From a virus: 47,904 bases of DNA. The position numbers were made by a program, and so were the translations under genes. The stretch covers positions 1 through 47,904 of the IMG/VR virus record IMGVR_UViG_3300035670_000342; one strand, 5' to 3'. Each line of letters starts with the position of its first letter. The stretch's first letter is position 1. This document shows, piece by piece, positions 2,725 to 28,531 of the stretch. The notes under the pieces are model-generated. The model was not told the DNA's origin. It saw nothing but the letters and a program-made list of their open reading frames with translations, and did no database searches.

Positions 2725-3489
2725 TTACTTCAAACCGTGGTCAAGTTTCCAGATGGCAAGTGCGTGGTAGAACTTGCTCCACGCCCGCTCTAAATCTTCC
2801 ATGCTGTGCTCGGCAACGACCACCTTTCCGTCGTCAATCCCGACAAACACATTCACGCACCGCACCGGCCACAATCCCAAGCCGTGCGCGTAGGCTGCCA
2901 ACTGACAGCGGTGTTCATCGTATGCCAACTCCTTGTCAGTCTTGTCGCCAAGTACGTCCTTTGTCTTGAAGTCCACGACTGCAAAGGCATTGTGCCAATC
3001 CACCTTGCCGCCAAAGCCAAGCTCATGCGCGAAGCTGTGTTCAGCCCTGCCCATCGCCAGATCAATGCCAATGCCTTTCAAGCGCATGGAAATGAGTTCG
3101 CAAGTCTCAAGGCATGATGTTGTCTGCCCCTGTAACCAGCGTTCAATGTCAGCATGGAACTGCGTGCCACGCTCGGCGGCGGCAATGGCTTTCTCCTTTG
3201 CCTCCTGCTTGACGGCCTTGCGCCATTCCTCGTCTGTCAGGTTATCGTGCGGCATCGTTGCTGCCGACATGAGCACCTGATCCTGTTTCCAGTTCTCAAG
3301 CCCTGGCGCGGCCATAACCTTCAACACGGTCGTCACACTCGGAACCCACCCGTGCTTCTTAGCTTCCCGCCATGTGGTAGGCTTGGTTTCGCCCTTTTTG
3401 TTGGTGTAGGTGTACCGAGGTTGTCCGTCTTTATCGTACCAGTGAGTTGAGTCGCTAGCGTAGTTTTTCTTTTCGCCATTGCCTGTCAT
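2725..3489 (-). CDS. PD-(D/E)XK exonuclease, RecB/Cas4-like (254 aa)
   Basis: The sequence shows the ordered RecB-type nuclease motifs. These are Gly-Thr-Gln-Phe-His-Ala-Asp-Ile-Glu (His112, Glu116), Gly-Gly-Lys-Val-Asp (Asp164), Val-Val-Asp-Phe-Lys-Thr-Lys (Asp173, Lys175) and Gln196...Tyr200. Residues 50-55 (Pro-Ser-Val-Thr-Thr-Val) are the usual N-terminal signature of phage members. It probably resects DNA 5' ends for recombination or replication together with the SSB-type protein upstream. ATG 3489 is chosen; an in-frame ATG at 3534 would overlap the HNH gene by 80 bases. No partner annealing protein is recognised nearby. Confidence 0.85.
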   Translation of the reverse strand: MTGNGEKKNYASDSTHWYDKDGQPRYTYTNKKGETKPTTWREAKKHGWVPSVTTVLKVMAAPGLENWKQDQVLMSAATMPHDNLTDEEWRKAVKQEAKEKAIAAAERGTQFHADIERWLQGQTTSCLETCELISMRLKGIGIDLAMGRAEHSFAHELGFGGKVDWHNAFAVVDFKTKDVLGDKTDKELAYDEHRCQLAAYAHGLGLWPVRCVNVFVGIDDGKVVVAEHSMEDLERAWSKFYHALAIWKLDHGLK

Positions 3490-3934
3490 AAGAAAGTTTG
3501 CACTCCTTGCAGTAGGTTTGTTTTGGTTTGCCATATCTTTTGCCGTTATGCTTACCAAAGCATGATAACGGCAATATTCTTCCACACGGTTTGCACAGAT
3601 AAAAACCGTCAGGTATATCCCTTTGCGCTCCTGACGAATTTTTACCAACCTCAATCCACCTTACATTTTCAGGGATATATCCAAGCGATGGCACAATGCG
3701 GTCTAAAGAGGGGCGTTTGAAATTATCTGGCCTATTGTTTTCAGCCCATCGTATAAAACTGCGCCTTGTGAACAAAACCCGAAGTCCTTCATAGGTTGGA
3801 TAGTTCCCATTTCTATTCCTCACTCTCTGCATGATGCTGTCAAACTTAGTGCCAGCCCAACACCTGAAACATTCCTTGCCGATGTAAACCGGCTTCTTAC
3901 AGCAACCGTTGTTACAATGGGGCTTGTCACTCAT
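3455..3934 (-). CDS. HNH-type endonuclease with zinc ribbon (159 aa)
   Basis: The central Ser-Leu-Asp-Arg-Ile-Val-Pro-Ser-Leu-Gly-Tyr followed by Glu-Asn-Val-Arg-Trp (about residues 75-93) is the signature of a phage HNH subgroup. Cys pairs at both ends (around residues 7-25 and 113-145) form zinc ribbons, and the C-terminus is very basic. The gene sits inside the recombination cluster, with ATGA coupling to the gene before it and overlap with the exonuclease gene after it. It may be a mobile nuclease. Confidence 0.75.
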   Translation of the reverse strand: MSDKPHCNNGCCKKPVYIGKECFRCWAGTKFDSIMQRVRNRNGNYPTYEGLRVLFTRRSFIRWAENNRPDNFKRPSLDRIVPSLGYIPENVRWIEVGKNSSGAQRDIPDGFYLCKPCGRILPLSCFGKHNGKRYGKPKQTYCKECKLSYDRQWRKEKLR

Positions 3935-4221
3935 TCCAGTTCAACCTCCGCTTTCGTGATCTTGTCGTTCTCTACGGTACAGACGAGCACAAGCTCGTCC
4001 TTGTGCGCTTGGACAATCCTGCCGGCCAGTTGCGGGTCGTGGACGCCTAAGATTCTGCGCTCTGGATCGTCGCAAAGCCTCACTGTCCAGCCATGCGCTC
4101 CCACACTCCACACACAGCCACGGATAATCTCCACGCCTTTCGGCAGCTTCGGGGCAGGCTCGGCGGGCTTGGCAGGAGCAGCACGGCGGGCGGGTTTGTG
4201 TTTCAGGTTGCTAAGGCTCAT
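3931..4221 (-). CDS. Unknown early protein (96 aa)
   Basis: A Lys/Ala/Pro-rich flexible N-terminus (residues 5-30) precedes a compact, beta-looking domain with Gly-Val-His-Asp-Pro and a Glu/Asp-rich end. No family is recognised. It overlaps both neighbours by 4 bases and lies between a coiled-coil protein and an HNH gene in the recombination/replication cluster. Confidence 0.6.
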   Translation of the reverse strand: MSLSNLKHKPARRAAPAKPAEPAPKLPKGVEIIRGCVWSVGAHGWTVRLCDDPERRILGVHDPQLAGRIVQAHKDELVLVCTVENDKITKAEVELE

Positions 4222-9309: not shown

Positions 9310-10152
9310 TCACGACAGCACCATTTTCTCCGCCTCGGCGCGGCTGTGCTCGCTCAAGACGTGCGCGTATATCCGCAGCACGATGGAAGGGTCCCGGTGC
9401 CCCAGCCATGACGATACGACATTCGGCGGCACGCCCCGGCGTAATGCTTCGGTGGCAAAGAAATGCCGGAACGTGTGATTGGTGAACCTCGGGAAGCCGC
9501 CCATAAGTCGCGCAGCATCCAATCCTTTCTTGGCCGAATTGACGGAGAAAATATAACCTGTAGTCGTCAACGGACGCAAGCGTTCCAGAAGTTTCCGGGC
9601 GCTCGGGAACAACGGGGTCCGCAGGTCATCGCCGTTCTTGCGGTCGCGGAACATGATCTCGCCCCGCTCAAAGTCGATGTCGTTCCAGAGAATCAACCGG
9701 GCTTCCGAGACGCGGCAACCGGTAGAACCCATAAATTCCACCAAGTCCGCCTCACGGGGAAACTTGTTCTCGCGGAGCCATTGCAGGATCCGCCCATAAG
9801 TCGCCATGTTCGGTACTTTCAAATCCAGTTTCCCGACCCGCACCCTACGGATGATCGCCGCCGGGCAGGTCGTGTACCCGTCCCGCTCGGCCTCGGTCAG
9901 GATGGATTGCACTACCTGAGCCTCGATGTTGTAGGATCGCGGTTTCAGTTCGGCACTACGCCGCTTGCACCACTCGGAAACATCGTTGGCGGTGAGCCGG
10001 TCTAGCCGGCAATACCCGAACGCTTTTTCAAGCTGGAGCAGGACGTAGCGGTAGCGTTCCATCGTGCCGGGTTTAATGGTGGCTTCCCGGCGGGACAGCC
10101 AGAGCCGCCCATAAGTGTGCAGCATCATCGGTTTATTTGTGGTGGCAATCAT
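9310..10152 (-). CDS. int: Tyrosine recombinase / integrase (280 aa)
   Basis: The catalytic set is visible: Arg147 in Thr-Gly-Cys-Arg-Val-Ser-Glu, Lys172 region, His226-x-x-Arg229, His252 in Leu-Gly-His-Arg and Tyr262. Residues 8-90 form the SAM-like core-binding domain. It should integrate and, with a helper, excise the phage genome. ATG 10152 is used (AAAGGA upstream, ATGA overlap with the preceding gene); the open frame extends further but without a start signal. An attachment site would be expected close by, most likely in the 8621-9309 interval. Confidence 0.9.
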   Translation of the reverse strand: MIATTNKPMMLHTYGRLWLSRREATIKPGTMERYRYVLLQLEKAFGYCRLDRLTANDVSEWCKRRSAELKPRSYNIEAQVVQSILTEAERDGYTTCPAAIIRRVRVGKLDLKVPNMATYGRILQWLRENKFPREADLVEFMGSTGCRVSEARLILWNDIDFERGEIMFRDRKNGDDLRTPLFPSARKLLERLRPLTTTGYIFSVNSAKKGLDAARLMGGFPRFTNHTFRHFFATEALRRGVPPNVVSSWLGHRDPSIVLRIYAHVLSEHSRAEAEKMVLS

Positions 10153-10310
10153 TTCAGTCCTTTCACGGTTTTTCGGATTCTCCCGGCTTCCGCCAGAAGT
10201 TCCCGGTTGCGGTCGGTTCGGCGCGAATTGCTTTCCTTGTCGTTGTACTCCGCCAAAGCCACGGCCATGTCCTCGATCAGCTTGATGATTTGGGATTGTG
10301 TGTCGCTCAT
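10149..10310 (-). CDS. Small helical protein coupled to the integrase (53 aa)
   Basis: Starts at ATG 10310, overlapping the previous stop, and ends in a TGA that overlaps the integrase ATG. It is helical and charged, with many Glu, Arg and Asn residues. It could be a recombination accessory factor because of its position, but no helix-turn-helix is evident. Confidence 0.6.
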   Translation of the reverse strand: MSDTQSQIIKLIEDMAVALAEYNDKESNSRRTDRNRELLAEAGRIRKTVKGLK

Positions 10311-10684
10311 ATCTCGACCCCTTCCCGTGAGAGTTCTCGACCGAGTTCGATGATCTTCCGCAATAGCTCACGTTCCTCCGCCCCGACCGGCAGCACGCCC
10401 CGCTTGCCTTGCAATCCGATATACTCAAAAAGAGTACGGATTAACAGGCTGGCGGTTTCCTCGACGTGTTCCGCAGTCGGTGGGACGGGTTCTTTCAGTC
10501 CCGCCACGGCGTCCGCTATGCCCTTGCGGTGATGGGCGGGCGGTCGCCAGGGTTCGCCCCGGCTGGCGGGATCGGCGCTCGGCTCGGGTTCGCCCTCCAT
10601 AAGTTTGCGAAACTCAGGGTTACGCTCCAGCACCGTCCCGCTCATTCCGTGGATACCTTGCAGTTCTTTCAGTGGAATGCCCAT
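10307..10684 (-). CDS. Unknown protein upstream of integrase (125 aa)
   Basis: ATG 10684 follows the GGAAAGGT-type ribosome binding site shared by genes in this block. It has a polar, Pro-rich middle and a C-terminal helix of Glu/Arg/Leu heptads. No family is recognised. It is the first gene after the terminator at 10776-10861, so this three-gene unit ending with the integrase probably has its own promoter. Confidence 0.6.
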   Translation of the reverse strand: MGIPLKELQGIHGMSGTVLERNPEFRKLMEGEPEPSADPASRGEPWRPPAHHRKGIADAVAGLKEPVPPTAEHVEETASLLIRTLFEYIGLQGKRGVLPVGAEERELLRKIIELGRELSREGVEI

Positions 10685-11323: not shown

Positions 11324-12463
11324 CTAGTTCAACCGTATCGGCATGATAACTTCCAACTGCGCTACATTGTCCGCCACCACAACGCCAGGGTCACGCTCAT
11401 CGTCACCCAGCCGCAACTCGATTTCCTCGCAGTCGTGACTTTTCACGGCATCGGCTAGGAAATTCGGGTTGAAAGCAATCACGCCCGGCACTTTGCCGGT
11501 TATCGTGACTGCAATTTCCAGCTTGGCGAAATCGGCATTCTCTCCCATGACCGTCAACTCGCAGCAGTTGGAGAATGCCAGCTTCACGGTCGGGGCTTTT
11601 TGGGAGCATAGCGGCAGCAGCGTTGCCAGCGCCCCGAGCAACGCCACGCGGTTAAACCGCGCAACGCCCTTGTGCTCGGTCGGAATCACGCACTGATAGT
11701 TCGGATATTGCCCCTCGATCAACTTGGTCCTGATTTCCACCGGCACAATCACAGCCTTTTTGCCTTTCCCCGTGATTGTCTCGAAGGTGAACTTGGCGGC
11801 ATTGCGGACTGCCACAAGGTCCACTTGCAACTGGACCAAGCCGGTGCCGGTTAGCAACGCCAAGAGCTTTTCAACCGTATCGCTTGGCAGAATGATCGAA
11901 AAGTTTTCACCCCCCGAACAAACCGTGTCGAAATAAACCAAGCGCCGGCCATCGATGGCAACGGCGCGCAGTTGCGTGTCTTTCCGTTCCAAGTAAACAC
12001 CGTTCAAGACAAACCGGGTTTCGTCGTCGCTTTGCGCGTGTTGAACCCGGCGGAGCAAGTTCGCCAAATCAGCTTGAGGGATTGTCATTTCCCGGCTGGG
12101 TTTCAGCTCCGGTTCAACCGGATAATCCGCCGCCGCAAACGTGTCCGCCGCCATTGTCATTACCCCGCTGGCAATGCTCATTCGGAGTGGGTCCGCCGTG
12201 TCTAACGTCACGACACAGTTACAGCCCTTAACGGCATCGGCTAGGCGCTTGGCGTCAACGCAAGTCGCGCCAGGGTCCGCCACGTCCGCCGGCAGTTGAC
12301 CAGTTAGCGTGCAATCCAAGTCCGTTGCTTGGAATTGCATTGCGCCATTAGTGGCGGTCATGCGAATTGCGCCAAGGATCGGCAGGACCGGACGGCGCTC
12401 GGCGAACCGTTTACCAAGCACGGCCATTGCCGCCATGTTTTGAGTTGTCATCGTTGCTTTCAT
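11324..12463 (-). CDS. dnaN: DNA polymerase III beta subunit, sliding clamp (379 aa)
   Basis: The three-domain clamp pattern is clear. There is Arg-Pro-Val-Leu-Pro-Ile-Leu near residue 26, Phe-Val-Leu-Asn-Gly-Val-Tyr-Leu-Glu in domain 2, Ala-Ile-Asp-Gly-Arg-Arg-Leu-Val, Glu-Gly-Gln-Tyr-Pro-Asn-Tyr at the domain 2/3 border, and an Ile-Met-Pro-Ile-Arg-Leu end. The length fits the bacterial family. It would ring the DNA and tether a polymerase, probably the host's since no polymerase is seen here. ATG 12463 has GGAAAGGT upstream, preceded by a hairpin (12479-12492). Confidence 0.9.
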   Translation of the reverse strand: MKATMTTQNMAAMAVLGKRFAERRPVLPILGAIRMTATNGAMQFQATDLDCTLTGQLPADVADPGATCVDAKRLADAVKGCNCVVTLDTADPLRMSIASGVMTMAADTFAAADYPVEPELKPSREMTIPQADLANLLRRVQHAQSDDETRFVLNGVYLERKDTQLRAVAIDGRRLVYFDTVCSGGENFSIILPSDTVEKLLALLTGTGLVQLQVDLVAVRNAAKFTFETITGKGKKAVIVPVEIRTKLIEGQYPNYQCVIPTEHKGVARFNRVALLGALATLLPLCSQKAPTVKLAFSNCCELTVMGENADFAKLEIAVTITGKVPGVIAFNPNFLADAVKSHDCEEIELRLGDDERDPGVVVADNVAQLEVIMPIRLN

Positions 12464-12470
12464 CTGTTTG

Positions 12471-12556
12471 ACCTTTCCGCCCATATTTGGGCTGTTATCG
12501 TGTTCGGGACCATCCCGGCCACGCTTGCCGGCACTGGCAACTCAGCCAATGCCGGC
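12471..12556 (-). promoter_or_regulatory. Hairpin-SD cassette before dnaN
   Basis: GCCCA-AATA-TGGGC (12492-12479) abuts GGAAAGGT (12478-12471), 7 nt before the start codon. Upstream, GCCGGCA and TGCCGGC (12527-12556) form a longer stem with an inner TGGC/GCCA pair. Confidence 0.55.
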
Positions 12557-16456: not shown

Positions 16457-18097
16457 ATGAATTTCTTGAGTGGGTTACGGGAACGGCGGGAATTGCGTCG
16501 TGCTCGGGCGGCGTCGGAGTTGGCGAGGTTGGAGGTGCAACGGGCCAAGGACGAGGAATTGCGAATGGTGATCTCGGAGGCGCGGAACATCTTCAACGTG
16601 GATGATACGGGGGTGTTGTTCGACCTCTACAATTACACGACCGGGGATGCGATTGACGAGGGAAGTTTCCTGACGATGCAACGGAACGCATACCAAGCGT
16701 GGGCGACCGATGCGTATGCCGGTGGGTGGATTGAGGCGATGGTTCGGATGGTGGTTGGACGGAACTGTTGGTTGAAAGCAAGGGATGAAGATACCGAGAC
16801 GCAGAAGGTGTTGGATGCGTTCTGTGCCGGGTACGAGAAACCGGGCGGGAACGGGCAGCGGGAATCCAGTTGGCCGGTGTTCGCGCAGGAGTTTGCCCGC
16901 CGAGCGTTCCGGGACGGGGAATCGATTGTGCGGAAGTTTGTGAACCCGATGAACGGGCACATCTACAAGCGGTTCCTGAACCCGATGTGGATTAAGAGCG
17001 GGGCGGGGTACGACCATCGGGCGAGCTTCGGGATTATCACCAGCGACAACGACATTGAAACGCCGTTGACGTATTTGTACTGGCCGTGGAACGGGAACAG
17101 TTACACCACCCAGCCGATTCGGATTGACGCCTCGGAAGTATGGCATTGCAAGCTGAACGACAGCGATGCGAAACGGGGCCGACCGGTGATTCTCAGGGTC
17201 ATTGGGGATTTGGTCGGGTTGAACAAGATTATGAAGTCCCGCGAGAAACTGATATGGTTGCGAAGCCAGTTCGCGGTGGAAAAGATTTATGACGGGTCCA
17301 GTCCCGATTTGATTCGGGCAAGCCATGAATCGGCTCGGACCGGCAACAGCACGGATAGTACCCTGAAAGAGTCCGCGCCAAATCCCGGCAGCATCGCCCG
17401 GCACAGTGCCAACGTAAAGTATGAGTTCAAGACGCCGAACTTGCAGGCAATGGATGTCGATGTGGACATCAAACGCCGGCTGGAACGGATGTCGGTGGGG
17501 ATGGGTTTGAGTTATTACGTCGCGTCCGGGGATATATCCGCCAACACGTATGACAGCGGGGAACTGGCGGAAAGCCCGATGCTGGCGACGATTTACTCCT
17601 ACCGCGAGATTTTCGGTCAGGTCTTTAGTCAGATCGGGGCCGCTGTTCTACAAGAGGCAATCGACAAGGGGGAATTAAGCCGCAACAGTTTTCGCACCGA
17701 GTTGGATGGTGCCAAAACCACCGTTCCCCGAACCACCGAGGTTATCGTGGATTACCCGAACATTGCGCCCCGTGATTTGGAGAAGGAAACCCGGAGCTAC
17801 ATCCTGCAAGCCGCCCAACGCTGGATTAGCGACCGGACGGCGCAGATAAAGTTGGGACTGAACCCGGAAGAAGAAAAAGCCCGCATCGTCATGGAGACGG
17901 AACGGAAACGGGAACAGGACGAACAAGACGATTGGATGAACGATGCCGAGTTAATGGCGGTGGCTGGGAACGGTACCGGCTTGGAACGGCAGGCGGAACG
18001 CGGCACGGGCGGGAACGGACAGAACGGACAGAACGGAAAGAAGGCGGGTTCGATGCGTATGAACCGACCGGCAAGGAGCCGTGCAAAGACAAGTTGA
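16457..18097 (+). CDS. Portal protein (546 aa)
   Basis: Length and sequence fit a lambda B-like portal. There is a Trp/Tyr-rich middle, a Phe-Arg-Asp-Gly-Glu-Ser segment near residue 155, a conserved Ser-Tyr-Tyr...Asp-Ile-Ser-Ala-Asn-Thr-Tyr-Asp-Ser-Gly stretch in the stem/crown region, and a C-terminal Gly/Asn/Arg-rich tail (about 505-546). The portal forms the dodecameric ring through which DNA is packaged by TerL. GGGAAG precedes the ATG. The next gene starts inside its last codons. Confidence 0.85.
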   Translation: MNFLSGLRERRELRRARAASELARLEVQRAKDEELRMVISEARNIFNVDDTGVLFDLYNYTTGDAIDEGSFLTMQRNAYQAWATDAYAGGWIEAMVRMVVGRNCWLKARDEDTETQKVLDAFCAGYEKPGGNGQRESSWPVFAQEFARRAFRDGESIVRKFVNPMNGHIYKRFLNPMWIKSGAGYDHRASFGIITSDNDIETPLTYLYWPWNGNSYTTQPIRIDASEVWHCKLNDSDAKRGRPVILRVIGDLVGLNKIMKSREKLIWLRSQFAVEKIYDGSSPDLIRASHESARTGNSTDSTLKESAPNPGSIARHSANVKYEFKTPNLQAMDVDVDIKRRLERMSVGMGLSYYVASGDISANTYDSGELAESPMLATIYSYREIFGQVFSQIGAAVLQEAIDKGELSRNSFRTELDGAKTTVPRTTEVIVDYPNIAPRDLEKETRSYILQAAQRWISDRTAQIKLGLNPEEEKARIVMETERKREQDEQDDWMNDAELMAVAGNGTGLERQAERGTGGNGQNGQNGKKAGSMRMNRPARSRAKTS

Positions 18098-18965
18098 GTG
18101 CTGTGGGGCTATACGAGAAGTCGTGGCGCGAGACCGCGATGTGCCGTCGCGGATCCCACCGGACGAGAACCGGCGTAGCTATCTTCGTTACCTGAGAGAG
18201 AAAGACAAGGAAGCCTTGGACGTGTTGGCCCTGTTGTACGCGGCCTTGGCAGCGGCAATGGCGGGCGGGGCGGGAGCCGATGGCCGGCTGGACCTGATTG
18301 ATTTGCGGGGGCTGGAAAACCGGGTCAACGGCACGTTCCGGGTTTACACCGCTCGACTCGCGGACGTGGCGACGGGCGGACTAAGGAGGGTGATTGATCT
18401 TGGCGAACAAACCATGCTCGATACCATGCGTGCCCAGTTGGGGGCAACACAGGCGGGACGCCTGTTGCGTGGCTATGATTCGGTGGGCGGTCAGACTCAA
18501 TCATACGTTGCTGAAATGGGCACACGCCATGAGCCGTTGGCTGATTGGATTCAGCGCGTGGCTGGGGATGCTCGGTCTAAAGTGCTCCGTGAAGTGCGTA
18601 CAGGCATTGTGCAGGGAGAACAGGCCACCAATGTCACCAAGCGTATTCGTGGAGTCATTACCGGCGAAGTCGCGGGGGGCGGTCAAAGGCCGAAAGAATC
18701 GTTGGCGGTCAACGTCCCGCGAGCCATCGAAACGGAGTACGCCGGCGCGTTCGCGGAAGCGCAGAAACGTGTAGCCGGCAAGTTCAAGGATGTGTTGGTC
18801 GGGTTCCGGTGGTGGTTGTCGGATCGTCATGTGGTGCCGGACATCTGCGACCGATACTCCGGTCAACTCCTGCGGTTGGGGTCAAAGGATTTGCTGAACT
18901 TCCCGCCCCACCCGAACTGCCAGTGTTTTTTACAACCCGTATGGGAGAAAGCGAGTGAACGGTGA
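18081..18965 (+). CDS. Head morphogenesis protein, Mu F-like (294 aa)
   Basis: The C-terminal Arg-Trp-Trp-Leu-Ser-Asp-Arg-His, Asp-Ile-Cys-Asp-Arg-Tyr-Ser-Gly and His-Pro-Asn-Cys-Gln-Cys-Phe motif (about residues 243-287) is the Mu gpF minor head signature. It is normally found directly after the portal, as here. GTG 18081 has AAGGAG upstream; a later GTG is possible. The protein probably sits inside the head near the portal. Confidence 0.8.
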   Translation: MQRQVECCGAIREVVARDRDVPSRIPPDENRRSYLRYLREKDKEALDVLALLYAALAAAMAGGAGADGRLDLIDLRGLENRVNGTFRVYTARLADVATGGLRRVIDLGEQTMLDTMRAQLGATQAGRLLRGYDSVGGQTQSYVAEMGTRHEPLADWIQRVAGDARSKVLREVRTGIVQGEQATNVTKRIRGVITGEVAGGGQRPKESLAVNVPRAIETEYAGAFAEAQKRVAGKFKDVLVGFRWWLSDRHVVPDICDRYSGQLLRLGSKDLLNFPPHPNCQCFLQPVWEKASER

Positions 18966-19912
18966 AGATTTGTTTTGTGGGGAACTTTGAACCGCCTAAT
19001 TCGACCGAGAACGATTTGTTGTGGACGCTGCGGGACATGGGCCATGAAGTGTACCCGAAACAGGAGAACCGCGCCCCCGGGTCGAACATCATCCTGACCT
19101 GCCGTCAATGCGATGCGATGTTGTGGGTCCACACGCACGGCTGGGAAACACCGGGCGGGTCGAAGGCGATGCTGGATGGCGTCAAGGAGACCGGGTGCCC
19201 GACCGCTTCGTTTCACTTGGACCTGTACGCGGGACTGCCACGGTCGAGCATGGTCGAATCGCACCCGTTCTTTCGGACGGACTACTTTTTCGGCGTGGAT
19301 GGTGGAAGCCAGGAATGGTACACGAACAAGGGCATCAACCACGTTTACACCCATGCCGGCGTCGTGAAACGGGACTGCTATTTGGGACAGTCGGATACGA
19401 AGTTCTGTGACGTGGCGTTTGTCGGGAGCGGCACGTATCACGAGTCGTGGCCGTATCGGAAGAAGCTGCTGGAATGGCTGGCAGCGACGTATGGCAAAGG
19501 TTTCCGGCACGTTGGCAACCCGAACCCCGGTTTGCGCGGGGATGATCTTAACCAGTTTTACGCGGGATGCAAGGTGGTGGTTGGGGATACGTTATGCCCG
19601 AACTTCGCCCACCCCGAGTATTGGAGCGATAGACCGTATGAAGCTCTTGGCCGGGGCGCGTTTCTCATCATGCCCTACGTGAAAGGCATGGAGAAAGATT
19701 TCACGGCGAACGAGCATCTGGTGTTCTACGAGTTCAACGATTGGGACGGGCTGCGAACGAAGGTCGATTATTACCTGACCCACGACGACGACCGGGAGTT
19801 GATCCGCCTGATGGGACATGAACACGTAAGAAAAAATCATACCTACCATAACCGGATGGAAACGGTCGTGGAAACACTGAGAACCCACGCATTGAAGGCA
19901 ACCTATGTCTGA
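18962..19912 (+). CDS. Glycosyltransferase, CgeB-like (316 aa)
   Basis: An N-terminal Rossmann strand (Lys-Ile-Cys-Phe-Val-Gly-Asn-Phe) and a C-terminal Ser-Asp-Arg-Pro-Tyr-Glu-Ala-Leu-Gly-Arg-Gly-Ala-Phe, followed by a Tyr-Leu-Thr-His-Asp-Asp-Asp helix, match GT-B enzymes of the CgeB/DUF3880 type. These transfer a sugar from a nucleotide donor. GTG 18962 overlaps the preceding stop. It starts a modification cassette inserted between head genes; the target (capsid, tail, DNA or host glycan) cannot be told. Confidence 0.75.
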   Translation: MKICFVGNFEPPNSTENDLLWTLRDMGHEVYPKQENRAPGSNIILTCRQCDAMLWVHTHGWETPGGSKAMLDGVKETGCPTASFHLDLYAGLPRSSMVESHPFFRTDYFFGVDGGSQEWYTNKGINHVYTHAGVVKRDCYLGQSDTKFCDVAFVGSGTYHESWPYRKKLLEWLAATYGKGFRHVGNPNPGLRGDDLNQFYAGCKVVVGDTLCPNFAHPEYWSDRPYEALGRGAFLIMPYVKGMEKDFTANEHLVFYEFNDWDGLRTKVDYYLTHDDDRELIRLMGHEHVRKNHTYHNRMETVVETLRTHALKATYV

Positions 19913-20585
19913 GAATCGAATCATCTGGATGTGTGGTGGCGCGGCGTTGCGCTGGCGCAAGTTTGGCGGGGCTGGCAAACACGAGTTCCGCATCGGCGGG
20001 GAACGGGTGATCGACCGGTCGGTGCGCTTGTTGTCGGCGCAGTTCCCCGACTGGAAACGCTACATCGTCAGCGACAGTTTGGAAGTCGAAGGTTGTGACC
20101 GGGTTCCGCCGAGACAGAGAACCTACAACATGGACAAGTTCACATCCAGCTCTACGATTTGGCGTGAACCCGGCACTACCCTGATGGTCTATGGCGACGT
20201 ATTCCTGTCGCTGGATGCGGCAAACCGGATTCGCGAACTGGCGAACGGTGACAAATACCGCTGGTTTGTGAATCGTCAGGCTGGTGAGGTCATTGCGTTC
20301 TATCTGCCGGATGGATTGCGGGAGGATGCGAACGCCAAGTTCGATTTCCTGCGGAGAACGGAAGCGAGCGGTATGCACTACGGCGGTGGGTGGCGGTCGA
20401 TCCGGTATTTCGTGGGACTGGAGCCGGAAGCGCCCGAGGGTGAGTATCTGCTGGACAAGATACCGAATGACGAGTTTTGCGTGGATATATCCGGTGTCAC
20501 CCGCGACTTCGATACACCCGACGACTTGGTGTGGTGGCTGTTGCCATTGGCCGAGGAAGAACTAAAACGGAAAGGCGAACTATGA
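19905..20585 (+). CDS. Nucleotidyltransferase-like protein (226 aa)
   Basis: An N-terminal Gly-Gly-Ala-Ala-Leu-Arg-Trp, Gly-Gly-Glu-Arg-Val-Ile-Asp-Arg, then Val-Tyr-Gly-Asp-Val-Phe-Leu-Ser in the middle, and Asp-Phe-Asp-Thr-Pro-Asp-Asp-Leu near the end. This is the order expected of MobA-like or sugar-nucleotide pyrophosphorylase folds (GT-A). It may make the activated sugar used by the adjacent glycosyltransferases. The loop at residues 11-16 departs from the standard Gly-rich motif, so activity is uncertain. Confidence 0.6.
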   Translation: MSENRIIWMCGGAALRWRKFGGAGKHEFRIGGERVIDRSVRLLSAQFPDWKRYIVSDSLEVEGCDRVPPRQRTYNMDKFTSSSTIWREPGTTLMVYGDVFLSLDAANRIRELANGDKYRWFVNRQAGEVIAFYLPDGLREDANAKFDFLRRTEASGMHYGGGWRSIRYFVGLEPEAPEGEYLLDKIPNDEFCVDISGVTRDFDTPDDLVWWLLPLAEEELKRKGEL

Positions 20586-21358
20586 GCGATAACTATGCGA
20601 CGTACATCACCCCGAGCGGACACAAGATGTTGGTTCGGACATCCAAGTTTGCGAATTGCAGTGATGACCTGATTATCCGCGAGCAATGGATGGAGAACGT
20701 GTACCGGCTGGACCCGCAGACATTGGGCGGGACACGATTGATCGTGGACATCGGTTGCAACATTGGCGGGTTCGCCATCTTTGCTTGTTCCTGCGAGCCG
20801 AATGTCAGGGTGGTGGGGTTTGAGCCGGAAGAAGAAAACTACCGGATGCTCTGCCGGAACGTGGAAGAAAACGGGCTGGGCACAAGGATTGAAGCGCACC
20901 GGTACGCCGTTGGGAAAGCGACGGGTGAAGTCACGGTGAACGCTTTCCAAGCCGGGACATGGGTGGACGGCCAACCCTCCATCCATGCCGGCACGGCGCA
21001 GATCGTCCCGAACCAAGGCGGGAGCCGGGTGTTGGACACGATTGAAGTCAAACCCAAGGGCTACGCGCCCAAGTGCGAGACGGTGCCGTGCATCACGTTC
21101 AAGCAAGCGTTGGACATGGCGTGCGGGGAAGGGAAAGGCTGCGATTTCCTCAAGATGGATTGCGAATGGAGCGAGTACGACATCATCGAGAGCGCCAACC
21201 TTGAGGATATGTACCGGTGCAAACACATCGCCATCGAGACGCACACGATAGACGAGCAACGGTTCGGGGCGTTCTTGGCGAAGCTCTGCCGGTCGCATCG
21301 GATTGAAGTGCTCGGTGGACACGCGAGCGGCGGGTATGTGTGGGGAACGAAACTGTGA
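20582..21358 (+). CDS. FkbM-family methyltransferase (258 aa)
   Basis: Val-Asp-Ile-Gly-Cys-Asn-Ile-Gly-Gly-Phe-Ala (about residues 56-66) is the SAM-binding loop. Gly-Phe-Glu-Pro-Glu-Glu-Glu-Asn-Tyr is the ribose-binding acidic motif, and Leu-Lys-Met-Asp-Cys-Glu-Trp-Ser-Glu-Tyr is the FkbM signature. These enzymes O-methylate sugars or small hydroxyl groups. ATG 20582 overlaps the previous stop. The neighbours suggest that it decorates a glycan. Confidence 0.8.
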   Translation: MSDNYATYITPSGHKMLVRTSKFANCSDDLIIREQWMENVYRLDPQTLGGTRLIVDIGCNIGGFAIFACSCEPNVRVVGFEPEEENYRMLCRNVEENGLGTRIEAHRYAVGKATGEVTVNAFQAGTWVDGQPSIHAGTAQIVPNQGGSRVLDTIEVKPKGYAPKCETVPCITFKQALDMACGEGKGCDFLKMDCEWSEYDIIESANLEDMYRCKHIAIETHTIDEQRFGAFLAKLCRSHRIEVLGGHASGGYVWGTKL

Positions 21359-21382
21359 TGGCTGACAATGGAGTGGCTTGTT

Positions 21383-21622
21383 ATGCGATTTGACGGAGCA
21401 GAATGTCCACGATGCAAAGGAACTGACTTCCGAGAGGTGGACTGCGGCCAAGACTCTTACGATGACGATATCACATGGACTGACACGATTTGTAACACCT
21501 GTGGGCTACGACACGATGGATGGAATGAGAAATGGTACACAGACATCGAGGAACGCACCGAGTATGAGGCTAACACGCCGTCGCCCGAGGCGCACGGCAC
21601 TGTTAGCCGATTGATGCCATGA
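21383..21622 (+). CDS. Zinc-ribbon small protein (79 aa)
   Basis: Cys-Pro-Arg-Cys near residue 8 and Cys-Asn-Thr-Cys near residue 37 make a zinc ribbon. The rest is acidic, with Trp and Asp. ATG 21383 has GGAG upstream; ATG 21368 has none. It is embedded in the sugar cassette and coupled to the next gene by ATGA. Function unknown. Confidence 0.6.
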   Translation: MRFDGAECPRCKGTDFREVDCGQDSYDDDITWTDTICNTCGLRHDGWNEKWYTDIEERTEYEANTPSPEAHGTVSRLMP

Positions 21623-22557
21623 AAGTCAACGTCATCACCAACACGACGAACGGGAAAGGTCTGCAACGGGACGCCGAGATCATCCGGGAAGCGTTGGTGA
21701 CTGCCGGCATCGAAGTCCGGTTGGCGCATTTCCTGAAACCGCAAGAAGCCGAGCCTGCCGACCTGAACATCTTCTGCGAGGTTATCACGGAAGAACACCT
21801 GAAATTGTCCAAGCGGAACTGGATATTTCCCAATCCCGACTGGTGGATGCCGCACTATGACGCCTTGCTCCCGCAGTTTGAGATGGTGTGTTGCAAGACG
21901 CGGGTGGCGCAACGGTTGTTCGCCAAGAAACATCATTCGGCGGTGTTCACCGGGTTCTGTGCGCGGGCGATGCTGGACAAGACATCCGGCAGGAAACGGA
22001 CGTTTCTGCATTGCCCCGGTGAAAGCATCGTCAAGGGCACGAAAGCCGTTTTGGAAGCGTGGCGGGATTATCAGATTCAGCATCCGTTGACGGTGGTGCG
22101 GGGGTTCCCCACTGTCCGGGCCGAGATGCAACAATACTGGGTGGACGTGGAAAAGATGCTGCCGATCCCGAACGTGGAAGTCTTGGGACGTATCACCGAC
22201 GAAGAATTGACCGCGTTGATGAACTCCAACATTTTCCACCTGTGCCCGTCCGAGACGGAAGGGTTCGGTCATTCCATCCATGAAGCCCTGAACTGCGGGG
22301 CGGTCGTGTGCGCGACGGATATTGCGCCCATGAACGAATGGCACGGCATCGACATCCGGTTACTGATCCCCGCCACGGCCATTCGCCAGCAGCGCATGGC
22401 AATCTGCGGGATGGTGCCACCGGACGGCATCAAGACGGTCGTGGACCGGTGCATGGACTTGGATTCCCGCGAGGTCTGCGCCATATCTGCCGTCGCCCAC
22501 GAGTTTTCGTTGTGGGAACGGATGGCGTTTTACCGGGCGTTGTATCACCTGTTATGA
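21619..22557 (+). CDS. Glycosyltransferase family 4-like (312 aa)
   Basis: The C-terminal half contains Leu-Cys-Pro-Ser-Glu-Thr-Glu-Gly-Phe-Gly-His-Ser-Ile-His-Glu-Ala-Leu, the nucleotide-sugar binding Glu-x7-Glu motif of GT4 enzymes, after Val-Glu-Val-Leu-Gly-Arg-Ile. The N-terminus begins with a Rossmann strand. It probably extends a glycan together with the other sugar genes here. It overlaps the TerL start by 4 bases. Confidence 0.8.
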   Translation: MKVNVITNTTNGKGLQRDAEIIREALVTAGIEVRLAHFLKPQEAEPADLNIFCEVITEEHLKLSKRNWIFPNPDWWMPHYDALLPQFEMVCCKTRVAQRLFAKKHHSAVFTGFCARAMLDKTSGRKRTFLHCPGESIVKGTKAVLEAWRDYQIQHPLTVVRGFPTVRAEMQQYWVDVEKMLPIPNVEVLGRITDEELTALMNSNIFHLCPSETEGFGHSIHEALNCGAVVCATDIAPMNEWHGIDIRLLIPATAIRQQRMAICGMVPPDGIKTVVDRCMDLDSREVCAISAVAHEFSLWERMAFYRALYHLL

Positions 22558-25139
22558 GCGATAAACGCGAGGGGATGATTCGCGGCAAGAGCGGTATCTG
22601 GCTGGATGCCGAGTTGCAGGCGAAAGCCAAGGAACTCGAAGCCAACCCCGAGTTGATGGCGAGTCTGACCCCGCGCATGAACAGTTATTTCAAGCAACTG
22701 CCGTGGCCGAAACAATGGGCGGCATTGCTGTTAAATGGACAGGAAGGGCTATACGGCGGAGCCGCTGGACCGGGGAAAGTAGTTGATAAAGAAGGACTTG
22801 TGTTGACTCCGTTCGGATTCAAGAAGGGCAAGGACTTGAAAGTTGGTGATGCCGTCAACAATCCAGATGGTTCGGTGGCGCGAATCATCCAGATTCACCC
22901 GACCGTTCGACTGCCGGCGTGGTGGGTGCGATTCAGCGACGGTACACAAACAAAGGTTGCCGCCGATCACTTGTGGCTGGCGTGGCGTTCCGGTAAGCGC
23001 AAGAAAGTTTCCAATGGTGGCAAGTTCGGCATGGCGGCAGCGGAGATCGTCGAAACCCGCACGATTAAGGAGTGGGTTGACGAAGCCAACCGACAAGTCG
23101 AATGCGGAATCCGACCGAACTGGCCTTGCATTCCGGTGTGCAGCGAACAACCGTTTAACGTGACGCACCGGTATCCTTCGGTGTTAGACCCCTACGTTTT
23201 GGGCTTATTGATTGGCGACGGTTCGATTGTTGATGCAAATGCACTCACAATCACGACAGCCGATATTGATTTCATGTGCGCCGAACTAGACAGGCGGGGC
23301 CTTGAGTATTCAGTCATCGGCAAGCAGGAAGGCAATCATGCCGTATCTCTGAGGTTTCGCGGCGAGAGCCGCAAGTTGATTGCTGCTGAATTGGAAAAGC
23401 TCAAATTACTGGGAACGTACTCTGACAACAAGTTTATCCCGCGCCAGTTTCTATACGGGTCAATTGAGTCGCGCTACCAACTGTTGCGCGGACTAATGGA
23501 CACGGACGGGCATTGCTGTGAAGAAGATACCGGCTATTGCACGATCAGCAGGCGGTTGGTGAAGGATATAATGTTTCTGATCCAAAGCCTGGGCGGTACA
23601 GCCACTTTATCCGAGAAGAATCCGACCTACACCTACAAGGGCGAAAGACGCAATGGACAGAAGGCGTACACGCTCTACATCAAACACCCCGACCAGACAA
23701 AGCTGTTTTCATTACCACGAAAACTCAAGGTCGCATCGAGCCGCGCCAGTACCCCGATGTACCGGCGGGTTGTGGGAGTGGAGGTTGACGGGGAGATTAT
23801 CGGTAACTGCATCACCGTGTCTCACCCCAACGGTCTGTATCTCACAAACGACTTTATTGTAACGCACAATAGCTCCTACCTACTCATGGCGGCCTTGCAA
23901 TACGCCGATGTACCCGGTTATTCTGCCGTGCTTCTACGTAGAACGTGGGCGCAGCTTTCACAGCCGGGCGGTCTAATCCCAAGATCGCAAGAATGGCTGG
24001 ATGGCACGGGAGCCAAGTGGAGCGAGACGAAGAAGCTCTGGACGTTCCCCTGCAAGGACGGTCCACCAGCGGTACTCCAATTCCTGCACATGGAACACCC
24101 GACTGATATGTATAACCTGAAAGGATTGGAAGCCCAGTTTTTCGGGTGGGATGAGTTGACCGAGTTTGAAGAAGCGATGTATCTGTACGGGTTTTCACGG
24201 CTCCGCAAACCAAGATGCCCGATTCACGATTCCACGCCAAACACGCAGGATTGCGCGTTCTGCCAACGGAACCATAAGTTGATGGCCGTGCCCCTTCGTG
24301 TCCGTGCCGCATCCAACCCCGGCGGCATTGGACATGATTGGGTCAAACAACGGTTTGTCGAACAACCCAACACGCCGGACAGATTCTTCATCCCCGGCAC
24401 CGTGTACGACAATCAGGCCGTGGACGCCGAGAGTTACGTCAAGAGTCTGCATCATCTTCCCATGATTGAACGGAAACGGTTGCTGGACGGGGATTGGAAC
24501 GTGACGGAATCGGGGATGCTGTTTCGGAGAGACTGGTTCAAGGTGATCGACACCGCACCGGCCAACCTCGCTTGTGTGCGAGCATGGGACTTGGCGGCGA
24601 GTGCCGTGAAGAAAGGGCGCGACCCCGACTATACGGTGGGAGCCAAGCTGGGGATTGACGGGAACGGTATTGTGGTCGTGTTGGACTTGAAGATCATGCG
24701 GGACACGCCGTTGAACGTGGAGATGCTGGTAAGAGAGACAGCCGAGCGGGACGGGATTGAAGTGCCAATCTACATCGAACAAGAACCGGGTGCTTCCGGC
24801 AAGAGTTTGATGGAGCATTATCAAAGGAACGTCTTGCGGGGATTCGTGTTCAGCTTCGACCGGAACACCGGCAGCAAAGCGGCCAGAGCAAAACCGTGGA
24901 GCGCCTACGCCGAGGCGGGTCACGTGTGTATGCTGCGGAGAGACTGGAACACGCCGTTTCTGGAGCAACACGAGATGTTTAGCGGCAAAGCGGACGGCCC
25001 GCATGACGACATCGTGGACGCCTGTTCGCTGGCGTTCGCCCAACTGAAACAACCGATTGCAAGGCGTGAAAGTTTTTACAGCGATGATCTGAACGACTTG
25101 GACGCAATCGAACGGGAACTGGCAAGCACTTGGGGATGA
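22554..25139 (+). CDS. terL: Terminase large subunit with intein (861-aa precursor, 497 aa spliced)
   Basis: Host-protein parts are residues 1-75 and 440-861. The Walker A loop Gly-Gly-Ala-Ala-Gly-Pro-Gly-Lys is cut by the intein directly after Lys75; splicing restores Lys-Ser-Ser. Walker B is Phe-Phe-Gly-Trp-Asp-Glu (Asp169/Glu170 in the spliced protein). The RNase H-like nuclease shows Arg-Ala-Trp-Asp-Leu-Ala-Ala and His-Asp-Asp-Ile-Val-Asp-Ala. TerL pumps DNA through the portal and cuts it. ATG 22554 overlaps the previous stop. Confidence 0.92.
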   Translation: MSDKREGMIRGKSGIWLDAELQAKAKELEANPELMASLTPRMNSYFKQLPWPKQWAALLLNGQEGLYGGAAGPGKVVDKEGLVLTPFGFKKGKDLKVGDAVNNPDGSVARIIQIHPTVRLPAWWVRFSDGTQTKVAADHLWLAWRSGKRKKVSNGGKFGMAAAEIVETRTIKEWVDEANRQVECGIRPNWPCIPVCSEQPFNVTHRYPSVLDPYVLGLLIGDGSIVDANALTITTADIDFMCAELDRRGLEYSVIGKQEGNHAVSLRFRGESRKLIAAELEKLKLLGTYSDNKFIPRQFLYGSIESRYQLLRGLMDTDGHCCEEDTGYCTISRRLVKDIMFLIQSLGGTATLSEKNPTYTYKGERRNGQKAYTLYIKHPDQTKLFSLPRKLKVASSRASTPMYRRVVGVEVDGEIIGNCITVSHPNGLYLTNDFIVTHNSSYLLMAALQYADVPGYSAVLLRRTWAQLSQPGGLIPRSQEWLDGTGAKWSETKKLWTFPCKDGPPAVLQFLHMEHPTDMYNLKGLEAQFFGWDELTEFEEAMYLYGFSRLRKPRCPIHDSTPNTQDCAFCQRNHKLMAVPLRVRAASNPGGIGHDWVKQRFVEQPNTPDRFFIPGTVYDNQAVDAESYVKSLHHLPMIERKRLLDGDWNVTESGMLFRRDWFKVIDTAPANLACVRAWDLAASAVKKGRDPDYTVGAKLGIDGNGIVVVLDLKIMRDTPLNVEMLVRETAERDGIEVPIYIEQEPGASGKSLMEHYQRNVLRGFVFSFDRNTGSKAARAKPWSAYAEAGHVCMLRRDWNTPFLEQHEMFSGKADGPHDDIVDACSLAFAQLKQPIARRESFYSDDLNDLDAIERELASTWG
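22779..23870 (+). mobile_element. Class 3-type intein with LAGLIDADG endonuclease (364 aa)
   Basis: The insert runs from Val1 to Asn364 (ending Val-Thr-His-Asn) and is followed by extein Ser. Position 1 is Val, so there is no N-terminal nucleophile. The class 3 Trp/Cys/Thr set is visible: Trp66 two residues after the block B His64, Cys344 in block F and Thr362 before the penultimate His. Block A shows Leu-Val-Leu-Thr-Pro-Phe-Gly and Lys-Val-Gly-Asp. Two LAGLIDADG motifs (about 139-149 and 235-245) mark a homing endonuclease. Confidence 0.85.
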
Positions 25140-25140
25140 C

Positions 25141-25914
25141 ATGAAAGTTACCATTGGAATACCGACCTACAACCGGGCTGAATTATGGCGAAAAGGCAAG
25201 CTATGGGACAGTCTCATGGACCAAAGCATTCTGCCCGATGAAGTCGTGATCGTGGATGACAACTCCAGCGATGAGACGGTGGAAGTCTTGTCCCAATTTG
25301 AGAAACCGTTTCCCGTGAGAGTGTTCAAGACGAACCTACCCAAGACCGGCAAGCACAACGATTCAGCGTTTGCCGATAACGTGATTTTCAAGGAGTCCAC
25401 CGGGGATTGGCTGTTGCACGTGGATGATGACGGGTGGATAGATTACCGGGCGGTGGAGACGATACACAAGCTGTCGGCCTTGGGAGAGACGGCGTGGTAC
25501 GGGAACATCTATTACGTCGATGCCGAGACAATGGAAGTCTTGGACAAGGATATCCGGCTGTCGATGGGCAAGATCACCGAGGACTACGCTTGGGGCGCGT
25601 TGTGGGCGGCTCCGTTGCCCCTGTTACGGCGCATTGGCGGGCATGAGGAACGCTGGATAGGCAAGTTAGGGTGCGATGCACGGCTTGGCACACGAATCGC
25701 CAGGATGGGCGTCAGACAGGCGTTCTATACGGGACCGGAGTTCCGGTTCTATCATTTCGGGCTGACCACGTGGCAATGGTACAACAAGACCAACCGGAAA
25801 GGTGAGGTTTACAAGCACTGGGTCGTACCGCAGCACGGCCAGATCGAAAGCCGACCTATCGTGAACGGCGGGGAGAAGTATTGGGCGCGGCTGACGGAGT
25901 ACGTCGAGGCTTAA
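25141..25914 (+). CDS. Glycosyltransferase family 2 (257 aa)
   Basis: The start Val-Thr-Ile-Gly-Ile-Pro-Thr-Tyr-Asn-Arg, then Val-Ile-Val-Asp-Asp-Asn-Ser-Ser-Asp and Leu-His-Val-Asp-Asp-Asp-Gly (the metal-binding DxD) are textbook GT2 signatures. It adds a sugar from a nucleotide donor. It directly follows terL and completes the set of sugar genes around it. Its end overlaps a convergent leftward gene by 4 bases. Confidence 0.88.
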   Translation: MKVTIGIPTYNRAELWRKGKLWDSLMDQSILPDEVVIVDDNSSDETVEVLSQFEKPFPVRVFKTNLPKTGKHNDSAFADNVIFKESTGDWLLHVDDDGWIDYRAVETIHKLSALGETAWYGNIYYVDAETMEVLDKDIRLSMGKITEDYAWGALWAAPLPLLRRIGGHEERWIGKLGCDARLGTRIARMGVRQAFYTGPEFRFYHFGLTTWQWYNKTNRKGEVYKHWVVPQHGQIESRPIVNGGEKYWARLTEYVEA

Positions 25915-26395: not shown

Positions 26396-28531
26396 ATGGC
26401 AGACAACAAGCATTTTACGGCTGAGATTGCGGAGCGATTCGCGTTCGGCGCTGGTATTTCCGAGCGGCTGGACAAGGAGAAGGGGATCGTTCGTGATGTT
26501 GTCCTTTTTGCCCCCAAGATTGAGGACGGCGTTTTCGTGTCGGAATCCGGGCGAATGTATGCGCCTGAGTTCATTGGCAACGCCGCGCCTGCGCTTGAGG
26601 GCGCTTTATCGTTTCCCAAACACCCCGCCCGCAATAACGGCGGTTGGGAAGAAAGGGATGTGCGCGAAGCACTGGGCCGGATTCGGCGGGTGCGCGTGGA
26701 CGGGAACAAGATTATCGGTGATTTCCATGTTCGGAAGGCGAAACGGGATGACGTGTTCGACCTGATCGAAGAAGCATGGGACACCATCGGTTTTTCACTG
26801 TTTGGCGATGGCATCGGATACCGGGACGCCAAGGGGCGCAAGGTTCTAACCGGCTTTGACCCTGACGTGAAGCGGAAACCCACCGCCGATTTGGTGGATT
26901 GCGGAGCGGCTACGACCAACGTGTTTGAGTCTGCCCCGCGTGAACTCAAACAAACCTCCGAGGAGAAAGTCATGGAGAAACAAGAAGTTGTGCAGATTAC
27001 CGACGCCGACAAGGACAAGTTGAAGGCCGAGGTGATGGAATCGCTCAAGCCGCAGCTTGACCGAGTTGCCGCTCTGGAATCAGAGAACGCCCGTTTGAAC
27101 CGCGAGGGGATCGTCCGTCAGAAATTGGCGGAATCTGCCTTGCCCGAAAAATACGTCACCAACGGTCTGCGTGAGCAGTTGATGACTTGCGATGAAGCCA
27201 AGATCACCGACTTCATCAAGGAACACAAAGAGGCGGTTGCCAACTCAATCCCAGTCGTCAAAGACATGGGCGCTGGCAGCGGAGCCGGGGAAAAGAAAGA
27301 AATGACGAAATCCATCGTGGAAGTGGCCGGGCACCGTGGCCTCAAGGAAGTGGTGCGTGAAGTGGCAGGCGGTCAGGGATTCGGTCGGGACCGCGACAAG
27401 GACCAGGCGTTTGTGAAGAAGTGGAACGCCGAGATTGCGGAATCGTTGACCGACATCAAGAACACCGACCCGCAGATCAAGAAACTCCGCGCCAAGCTCG
27501 TTGAGCAATTCAGCGGCACCGGCTTGCGGAACCTGTTTGCCGAGTGCTACGGCATCCTGCCGACCACCGAGGCGGACATCCGTGACACCATCCGTGAAAC
27601 CGCCGTGGACAGCACCGGCTTTGCCGTTGTGACCAGCGGGTTGCTCGGGATGAGCATGATTGAGGCGTACCAGTTGGTGGCCGCGCAGTCCGTGGCCGAG
27701 CAGTTGACCACGCCCTACCGCACCAGCAAGGCGACCGAACAGATCGCCGGGCTCACCGCCCCGTCCGGCAGCGCAGCCGTCTCGGAAGGCGCAGCGTATC
27801 CCGATGTGGCGATTGACGACAAGTACGTGACCTTGCAACAGATCACCAAGCGCGGTGGTGCCGTCAAGATCACCCGCGAAGCGGTGCTGTACGACATGAC
27901 CGGCCAGTTGCTCATGCGGGCCAATCGCATTGCCGAGAAGGAAGCCTACGAGGAAGAAAAGGCGGGCGTGCATGGCATCGTGGACGCCGCGAACTTCCGT
28001 TGCTGGTATCCGTCCGGCGTGATGACGACCCTGTGGGATGAAACCAACATGGTCGGCGCGAATGCCTTGGCGGATTACACCGACTTGGAAGGTGCCGCGC
28101 TCAAGTTGCTCGCGCAGTTGGACGAGAACGGCGACCGCATCGAGAACGCCGAGAATCCGTTTGAGATCCTGGTCCCGCAAGCGTTGATGTTCACCGCCCG
28201 CAAGATCGTGGGTGGCGACCTGAACGAAACCAATCCGGCGGCGGCGAACAACATTCGCGGCCCGAATCCGTGGGCAGCGACTCGCGTGTACGTGAGCAAG
28301 CACCTGGATTCGCTCTCCCCGACGACTTGGTATATGTCGGGTGCCGGCGGCTTCAAGCGCCAGTATCTCAAGAAAATCACGATCCCGTTTGAGGTCGTGC
28401 AGATTCCGGCGGCGGAAGTCAATGCGGTTACGCAGGACATCATCGGCGGCGTCCGTGTCGCGTGGGCCACGAAGGTTCAAGCCATCGACCGGAAGTACGT
28501 CATCAAGAGCATCAGCGCGGCGTTGAGCTAA
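26396..28531 (+). CDS. Fused prohead protease, scaffold and major capsid protein (711 aa)
   Basis: Residues 1-185 look like a prohead protease (Ser-Phe-Pro-Lys-His-Pro near 62-67, then Phe-His-Val and Ile-Gly-Phe-Ser). Residues about 190-300 are a Glu/Lys-rich coiled coil typical of a scaffold. The remainder matches an HK97-type capsid protein (Thr-Ser-Lys-Ala-Thr-Glu-Gln-Ile-Ala-Gly, then Gly-Ala-Ala-Tyr-Pro). Proteolysis would free the capsid part. Internal ATGs with ribosome binding sites (26972 and 27301) could give nested scaffold and capsid products. The ribosome binding site is GGAGAG. Confidence 0.8.
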   Translation: MADNKHFTAEIAERFAFGAGISERLDKEKGIVRDVVLFAPKIEDGVFVSESGRMYAPEFIGNAAPALEGALSFPKHPARNNGGWEERDVREALGRIRRVRVDGNKIIGDFHVRKAKRDDVFDLIEEAWDTIGFSLFGDGIGYRDAKGRKVLTGFDPDVKRKPTADLVDCGAATTNVFESAPRELKQTSEEKVMEKQEVVQITDADKDKLKAEVMESLKPQLDRVAALESENARLNREGIVRQKLAESALPEKYVTNGLREQLMTCDEAKITDFIKEHKEAVANSIPVVKDMGAGSGAGEKKEMTKSIVEVAGHRGLKEVVREVAGGQGFGRDRDKDQAFVKKWNAEIAESLTDIKNTDPQIKKLRAKLVEQFSGTGLRNLFAECYGILPTTEADIRDTIRETAVDSTGFAVVTSGLLGMSMIEAYQLVAAQSVAEQLTTPYRTSKATEQIAGLTAPSGSAAVSEGAAYPDVAIDDKYVTLQQITKRGGAVKITREAVLYDMTGQLLMRANRIAEKEAYEEEKAGVHGIVDAANFRCWYPSGVMTTLWDETNMVGANALADYTDLEGAALKLLAQLDENGDRIENAENPFEILVPQALMFTARKIVGGDLNETNPAAANNIRGPNPWAATRVYVSKHLDSLSPTTWYMSGAGGFKRQYLKKITIPFEVVQIPAAEVNAVTQDIIGGVRVAWATKVQAIDRKYVIKSISAALS

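Follow-up and report, generated by a model that had tools for sequence, protein, structure and literature searches.

The large terminase gene (terL) of the uncultured virus contig analyzed here, a 47,904-base IMG/VR virus record referred to below as the window, carries a long in-frame insert, which raises the question of what this element is and how a packaging ATPase could be produced from the interrupted gene. The terL ORF (22554..25139, + strand) matches the terminase nuclease domain Terminase_6C (8e-17) and, above the cut-off, the profile of the phage terminase large subunit (TIGR01630), and LAGLIDADG and Hom_end domains fall in the first half of its product. The precursor comprises 861-862 amino acids, depending on the start, and is predicted to yield a protein of about 497 amino acids after splicing. 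The insert itself occupies positions 22779..23870 (+), that is, 1092 nt or 364 codons (V1 to N364) in the same frame as the terminase, and occurs as a single copy in the record. Considering its residues, kinship and predicted fold, we assign a probability of about 95% to the reading that it is a class 3 intein of full length, a selfish and mobile protein-splicing element placed within the Walker A loop of the packaging ATPase.

The N-extein (22554..22778, +) ends in the Walker A stretch GGAAGPGK, as determined by alignment with intein-free homologs, and the C-extein (23871..25139, +) resumes with the Walker A Ser (Ser+1) as SSYLLMAALQ and comprises the remaining ATPase and an RNase H-like nuclease domain, with homology to 19 IMG/VR loci and to the TerL of the archaeal phage psiM2. 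The earlier note had placed the interruption exactly between the Walker A Lys and Ser and had proposed a comparison with intein-free terL alleles, which confirmed this position: all 15 intein-free IMG/VR homologs, found with the C-extein alone and 42-48% identical, present an unbroken GGxxGGGK-(S/T)xxLLMxAL (hyphen, insertion point), for example GGAAGGGK-SDALLMAALQ, and the Walker A motif is likewise uninterrupted in psiM2 (GGAAGGGK-SVALLMGALQYV) and in Gordonia phage GMA6 (GGAAGGGK-SDAVLMAALQYV). Because removal of the insert leaves no residue extra or missing, the intein borders are certain. Judging from the broken P-loop, it is sound to expect that packaging would depend on splicing. Comparison of the junction DNA between intein-bearing and intein-free alleles revealed just codon-level conservation of the P-loop, which defines no homing site. 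As a separate observation, the homologous TerLs of GMA6 (L109) and Brevibacterium phage Cantare (L113) are interrupted at another position, later in the ATPase domain, by Cys1 (class 1 type) inteins that also have Cys at block F:4.

Class 3 inteins are defined by the lack of a nucleophile at residue 1 together with Trp B:12, Cys F:4 and Thr G:5, the WCT set (PMC3196547, PMC7664689, PMC7891396). A script-based reading of the window intein gave Val1, His64, Trp66, Cys344, Thr362, His363 and Asn364, followed by Ser+1, and residue 1, at a border fixed by the intein-free homologs, is thus not a Cys, Ser or Thr nucleophile. Trp66 (B:12; codon 22974-22976, +) stands two residues after His64 (B:10; codon 22968-22970, +), both within the N-terminal splicing (Hint) half with blocks A and B (22779..23060, +, right border approximate), which was delimited by alignment and by the PDB match to class 3 DnaB inteins. 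Cys344 (F:4; codon 23808-23810, +) and Thr362 (G:5; codon 23862-23864, +) belong to the C-terminal splicing half with blocks F and G (23760..23870, +, left border approximate), which also holds His363 and Asn364. The Val at the intein start and the class 3 residues in blocks B, F and G had been read from the sequence in the earlier note; both observations stood when examined by translation, by script and by alignment with intein-free homologs, and the proposed alignment with known class 3 inteins (Baka, Redno2, Pharsalus, Mangeria, phiEL and others) showed agreement of the WCT set.

The comparison was extended to 76 non-redundant class-3-like sequences, comprising the window, 65 IMG/VR loci and 10 named phages. 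The six residues H64, W66, C344, T362, H363 and N364 were all present in 74 of the 76 sequences, the window included, an agreement that at the sequence level is far beyond chance. Cys F:4 and His B:10 were invariant (76/76), and Trp B:12 was replaced only in L045 (Phe) and in the TerL of Vibrio phage JA-1 (L105; Asn). Thr G:5 was also found in 76/76, but this count is partly ascertained, as the search seed NDFIVTHN favoured Thr. Since class 1 references share the other two positions (Trp aligned near B:12 in three of four and Cys at F:4 in four of four), the class signal resides mostly in Thr G:5 and in the absent first nucleophile. The first residue across the set is mainly Ala, Val or Gly, with few Ser or Cys. 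An apparent Cys1 accompanied by the full WCT set, which gives two candidate first nucleophiles, was observed in L038 (2983-4083), L046 (near 2980-4023) and the Mangeria exonuclease (L110). The earlier note had regarded a Cys or Ser at position 1 as incompatible with class 3; the residue here is Val, and these three cases indicate that such a rule is not strict. A reading with two nucleophiles (Cys1 and Cys F:4) is inapplicable to the window, where residue 1 is Val, and class 1 was rejected for the same missing nucleophile.

The predicted structure is in agreement with these assignments. An AlphaFold2 model of the intein built with a 44-sequence alignment (mean pLDDT 95.5, pTM 0.92) predicts a Hint splicing domain joined to a two-motif LAGLIDADG endonuclease. 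Among mini-inteins, the modeled splicing domain is best matched by 6bs8, a class 3 DnaB intein (Z 18.3, rmsd 1.5 Å, 123/125 residues), although other Hint domains were only 1-2 Z units behind. At the sequence level, the top PDB match of the window intein was the Mycobacterium smegmatis class 3 DnaB intein, and the intein family profile matched both mycobacterial class 3 DnaB inteins and the PI-SceI endonuclease.

All the parts required are found intact in the window intein, and from experiments on relatives we infer its splicing chemistry, its endonuclease activity and the need of packaging for splicing. The terL precursor would be translated whole, after which Cys344, helped by His64 and Thr362, would attack the Lys-Val peptide bond and hold the N-extein as a thioester. 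Ser+1 would then receive the N-extein from Cys344, cyclisation of Asn364 would free the intein, and an acyl shift would join GGAAGPGK to SSYLL, restoring the P-loop. The insert might additionally have a regulatory role, holding packaging back until redox or metal conditions shift, which would complement rather than replace the class 3 reading. The catalytic Cys is inherently sensitive, and class 3 DnaB inteins are described as responsive to oxidative stress, zinc and reactive chlorine (PMC6195587, PMC7360933, PMC8557812). However, the TerL inteins tested so far splice fast (PMC5050341), close TerL relatives manage without an intein, and the window sequence contains no pointer to regulation, which makes such a role unlikely. 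Far less probable is a class 2-like route, in which Ser+1 itself would attack the Lys-Val bond, with no need for Cys344. Val1 and the His-Asn-Ser C-terminal junction would permit this route, but class 2 had been reported only in KlbA genes (PMC3196547), and the full WCT set, the kinship of the element and its best mini-intein fold match all favour class 3; class 2 was therefore rejected for an intein whose host protein is TerL and not KlbA and in which the WCT set is present.

The class 3 intein of the window also keeps the endonuclease that would confer mobility. The LAGLIDADG homing endonuclease domain (about residues 135-322; 23181..23744, +) was recognized by Pfam, with matches to LAGLIDADG_3 and Hom_end above cut-offs, by the PI-SceI profile match and by the fold match of model residues 135-322 to I-Tsp061I (Z 15.7); the whole intein model also matched PI-SceI (Z about 27). 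Motif 1 reads YVLGLLIGDGS (residues 139-149) and motif 2 LLRGLMDTDGH (residues 235-245); among 44 sequences, D241, D243 and G244 never vary, and conservation of D147 is at least 90%. The domain matches, motif conservation and predicted fold thus bear out that a two-motif endonuclease has been kept. In the proposed cycle, this domain would cut terL alleles (or related P-loop alleles) that lack the intein, acting at the same codons, and repair of the cut allele would copy the element in. That the intein has decayed and leaves a dead terminase is highly improbable, for although one decayed class 3 intein has been published (Arth_1007, PMC3196547) and the source record is an uncultured virus contig, all catalytic residues and both LAGLIDADG motifs are intact and no stops or frameshifts occur across the whole terL precursor ORF.

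Related inteins were identified in 509 phage records (tblastn; best identity 35.6%) and in 216 confirmed IMG/VR stretches. In a quick FastTree analysis, the window intein groups with P-loop inteins, mostly from TerL, in a clade with support of 0.93-0.97; it is nested among WCT inteins, and the class 1/class 3 split, with only four class 1 sequences, is poorly supported. The closest IMG/VR inteins occupy the same TerL P-loop site, and among the twelve closest the identity to the window intein is nearly flat at 43-51%, whereas the identity of their C-exteins ranges from 19 to 49%; in L001 and L003, for example, inteins 51 and 50% identical to that of the window are accompanied by C-exteins only 25 and 21% identical. 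Besides, TerLs about as close to that of the window as the closest intein-bearing one (L005) are without the element. The nearly flat intein identity against the wide C-extein range, together with the intein-free close TerLs, is consistent with horizontal homing into this one site, and the weak correlation between intein and extein distances (Mantel r 0.38, p 0.001) would reflect a remnant of shared descent mixed in with such homing. Gly-Lys or Ser-Lys directly precedes the intein in 59 of 65 non-redundant loci, which include TerL and apparently several other ATPases. It is possible, albeit somewhat doubtful, that one class 3 lineage specialised in P-loops, with an endonuclease that would recognise GxGK(S/T) codons and let the lineage jump between distant terminases and unrelated phage ATPases. 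A P-loop intein of the same kind was also found in IMGVR_UViG_3300031227_008217 (L027, 1072-2136), where the TerL frame contains 23 in-frame stops, several at conserved glycines (YG*AA*G*K for GGAAGGGK); this pattern suggests that a stop codon is read as Gly, as in code 25 of Gracilibacteria/SR1.

The genes around terL were also inspected. Glycosyltransferases and an FkbM-type methyltransferase surround it within 18962-25914 (18962-19912, about 20579-21358, 21619-22557 and 25141-25914), and the portal gene lies upstream (16457-18097), an unusual order for a packaging module. The record also encodes a sliding clamp of DNA polymerase (PHROG 947; three DNA_pol3_beta domains; 11324-12484, -) and a tyrosine integrase (9310-10428, -). 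Additionally, a 711-residue protein (26396-28531, +) matches Phage_capsid_4 in its C-terminal part, its N-terminal part being unmatched, and may be a fused protease-capsid protein.

Several known systems resemble the window intein. Among mycobacteriophage proteins, TerL most often hosts an intein, and the most frequent TerL1 sites lie within Walker A, with one site falling exactly between Lys and Thr. Splicing has been demonstrated for five terminase inteins and DNA cutting for two, and descriptions of class 3 TerL inteins, among them the Walker A one of phage Baka, date from 2016 (PMC5050341). Baka TerL1-b and the near-identical Redno2 intein (L108, L103) share with the window the WCT set, the TerL host, the Walker A location and the LAGLIDADG domain; the WCT set of Baka was read from the alignment through its Redno2 homolog. 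Splicing and cutting of the intein-free allele were demonstrated for Baka TerL1-b (PMC5050341), by analogy with which the window intein would be active. However, the Redno2 intein is only about 28% identical to that of the window, belongs to a different TerL family and is apparently inserted one residue further (NGKG-S). The closest deposited phage intein, that of Parabacteroides phage PF672P2 (L107; 35.6% identical), shares the GGGK-(T) insertion, the WCT set and LAGLIDADG, but it comes from a different host group and its P-loop-containing protein is annotated as 'hypothetical'. TerL P-loop inteins of uncultured viruses (L001-L018, IMG/VR) have the same site and WCT set, the closest being 43-51% identical, and several of their exteins are far more diverged than the inteins. 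Mycobacterium class 3 DnaB mini-inteins (6bs8, 6rix, 6riy) share the splicing fold and catalytic residues, although they lack the endonuclease and reside in a helicase, whereas PI-SceI, the yeast VMA1 intein, shares the Hint and LAGLIDADG architecture but belongs to class 1 (Cys1).

Overall, all sequence claims of the earlier note hold, and kinship, predicted fold and intein-free alleles support a class 3 TerL P-loop intein. It is a new sequence and an ordinary member of a well-described kind with hundreds of relatives: 1,701 class 3 inteins were catalogued from nr in 2020, 82.5% of them with LAGLIDADG motifs (PMC7891396), P-loop inteins as such were already known, and the combination of class 3, TerL P-loop and LAGLIDADG is common and published. 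The finding brings no change to known intein chemistry or phage packaging, and the value of the element, a clean example of a full-length class 3 intein in an uncultured virus, is that of a further sequence and, possibly, of a tool for splicing. Taken together with its relatives, it indicates that class 3 P-loop inteins move between terminases sharing little sequence.
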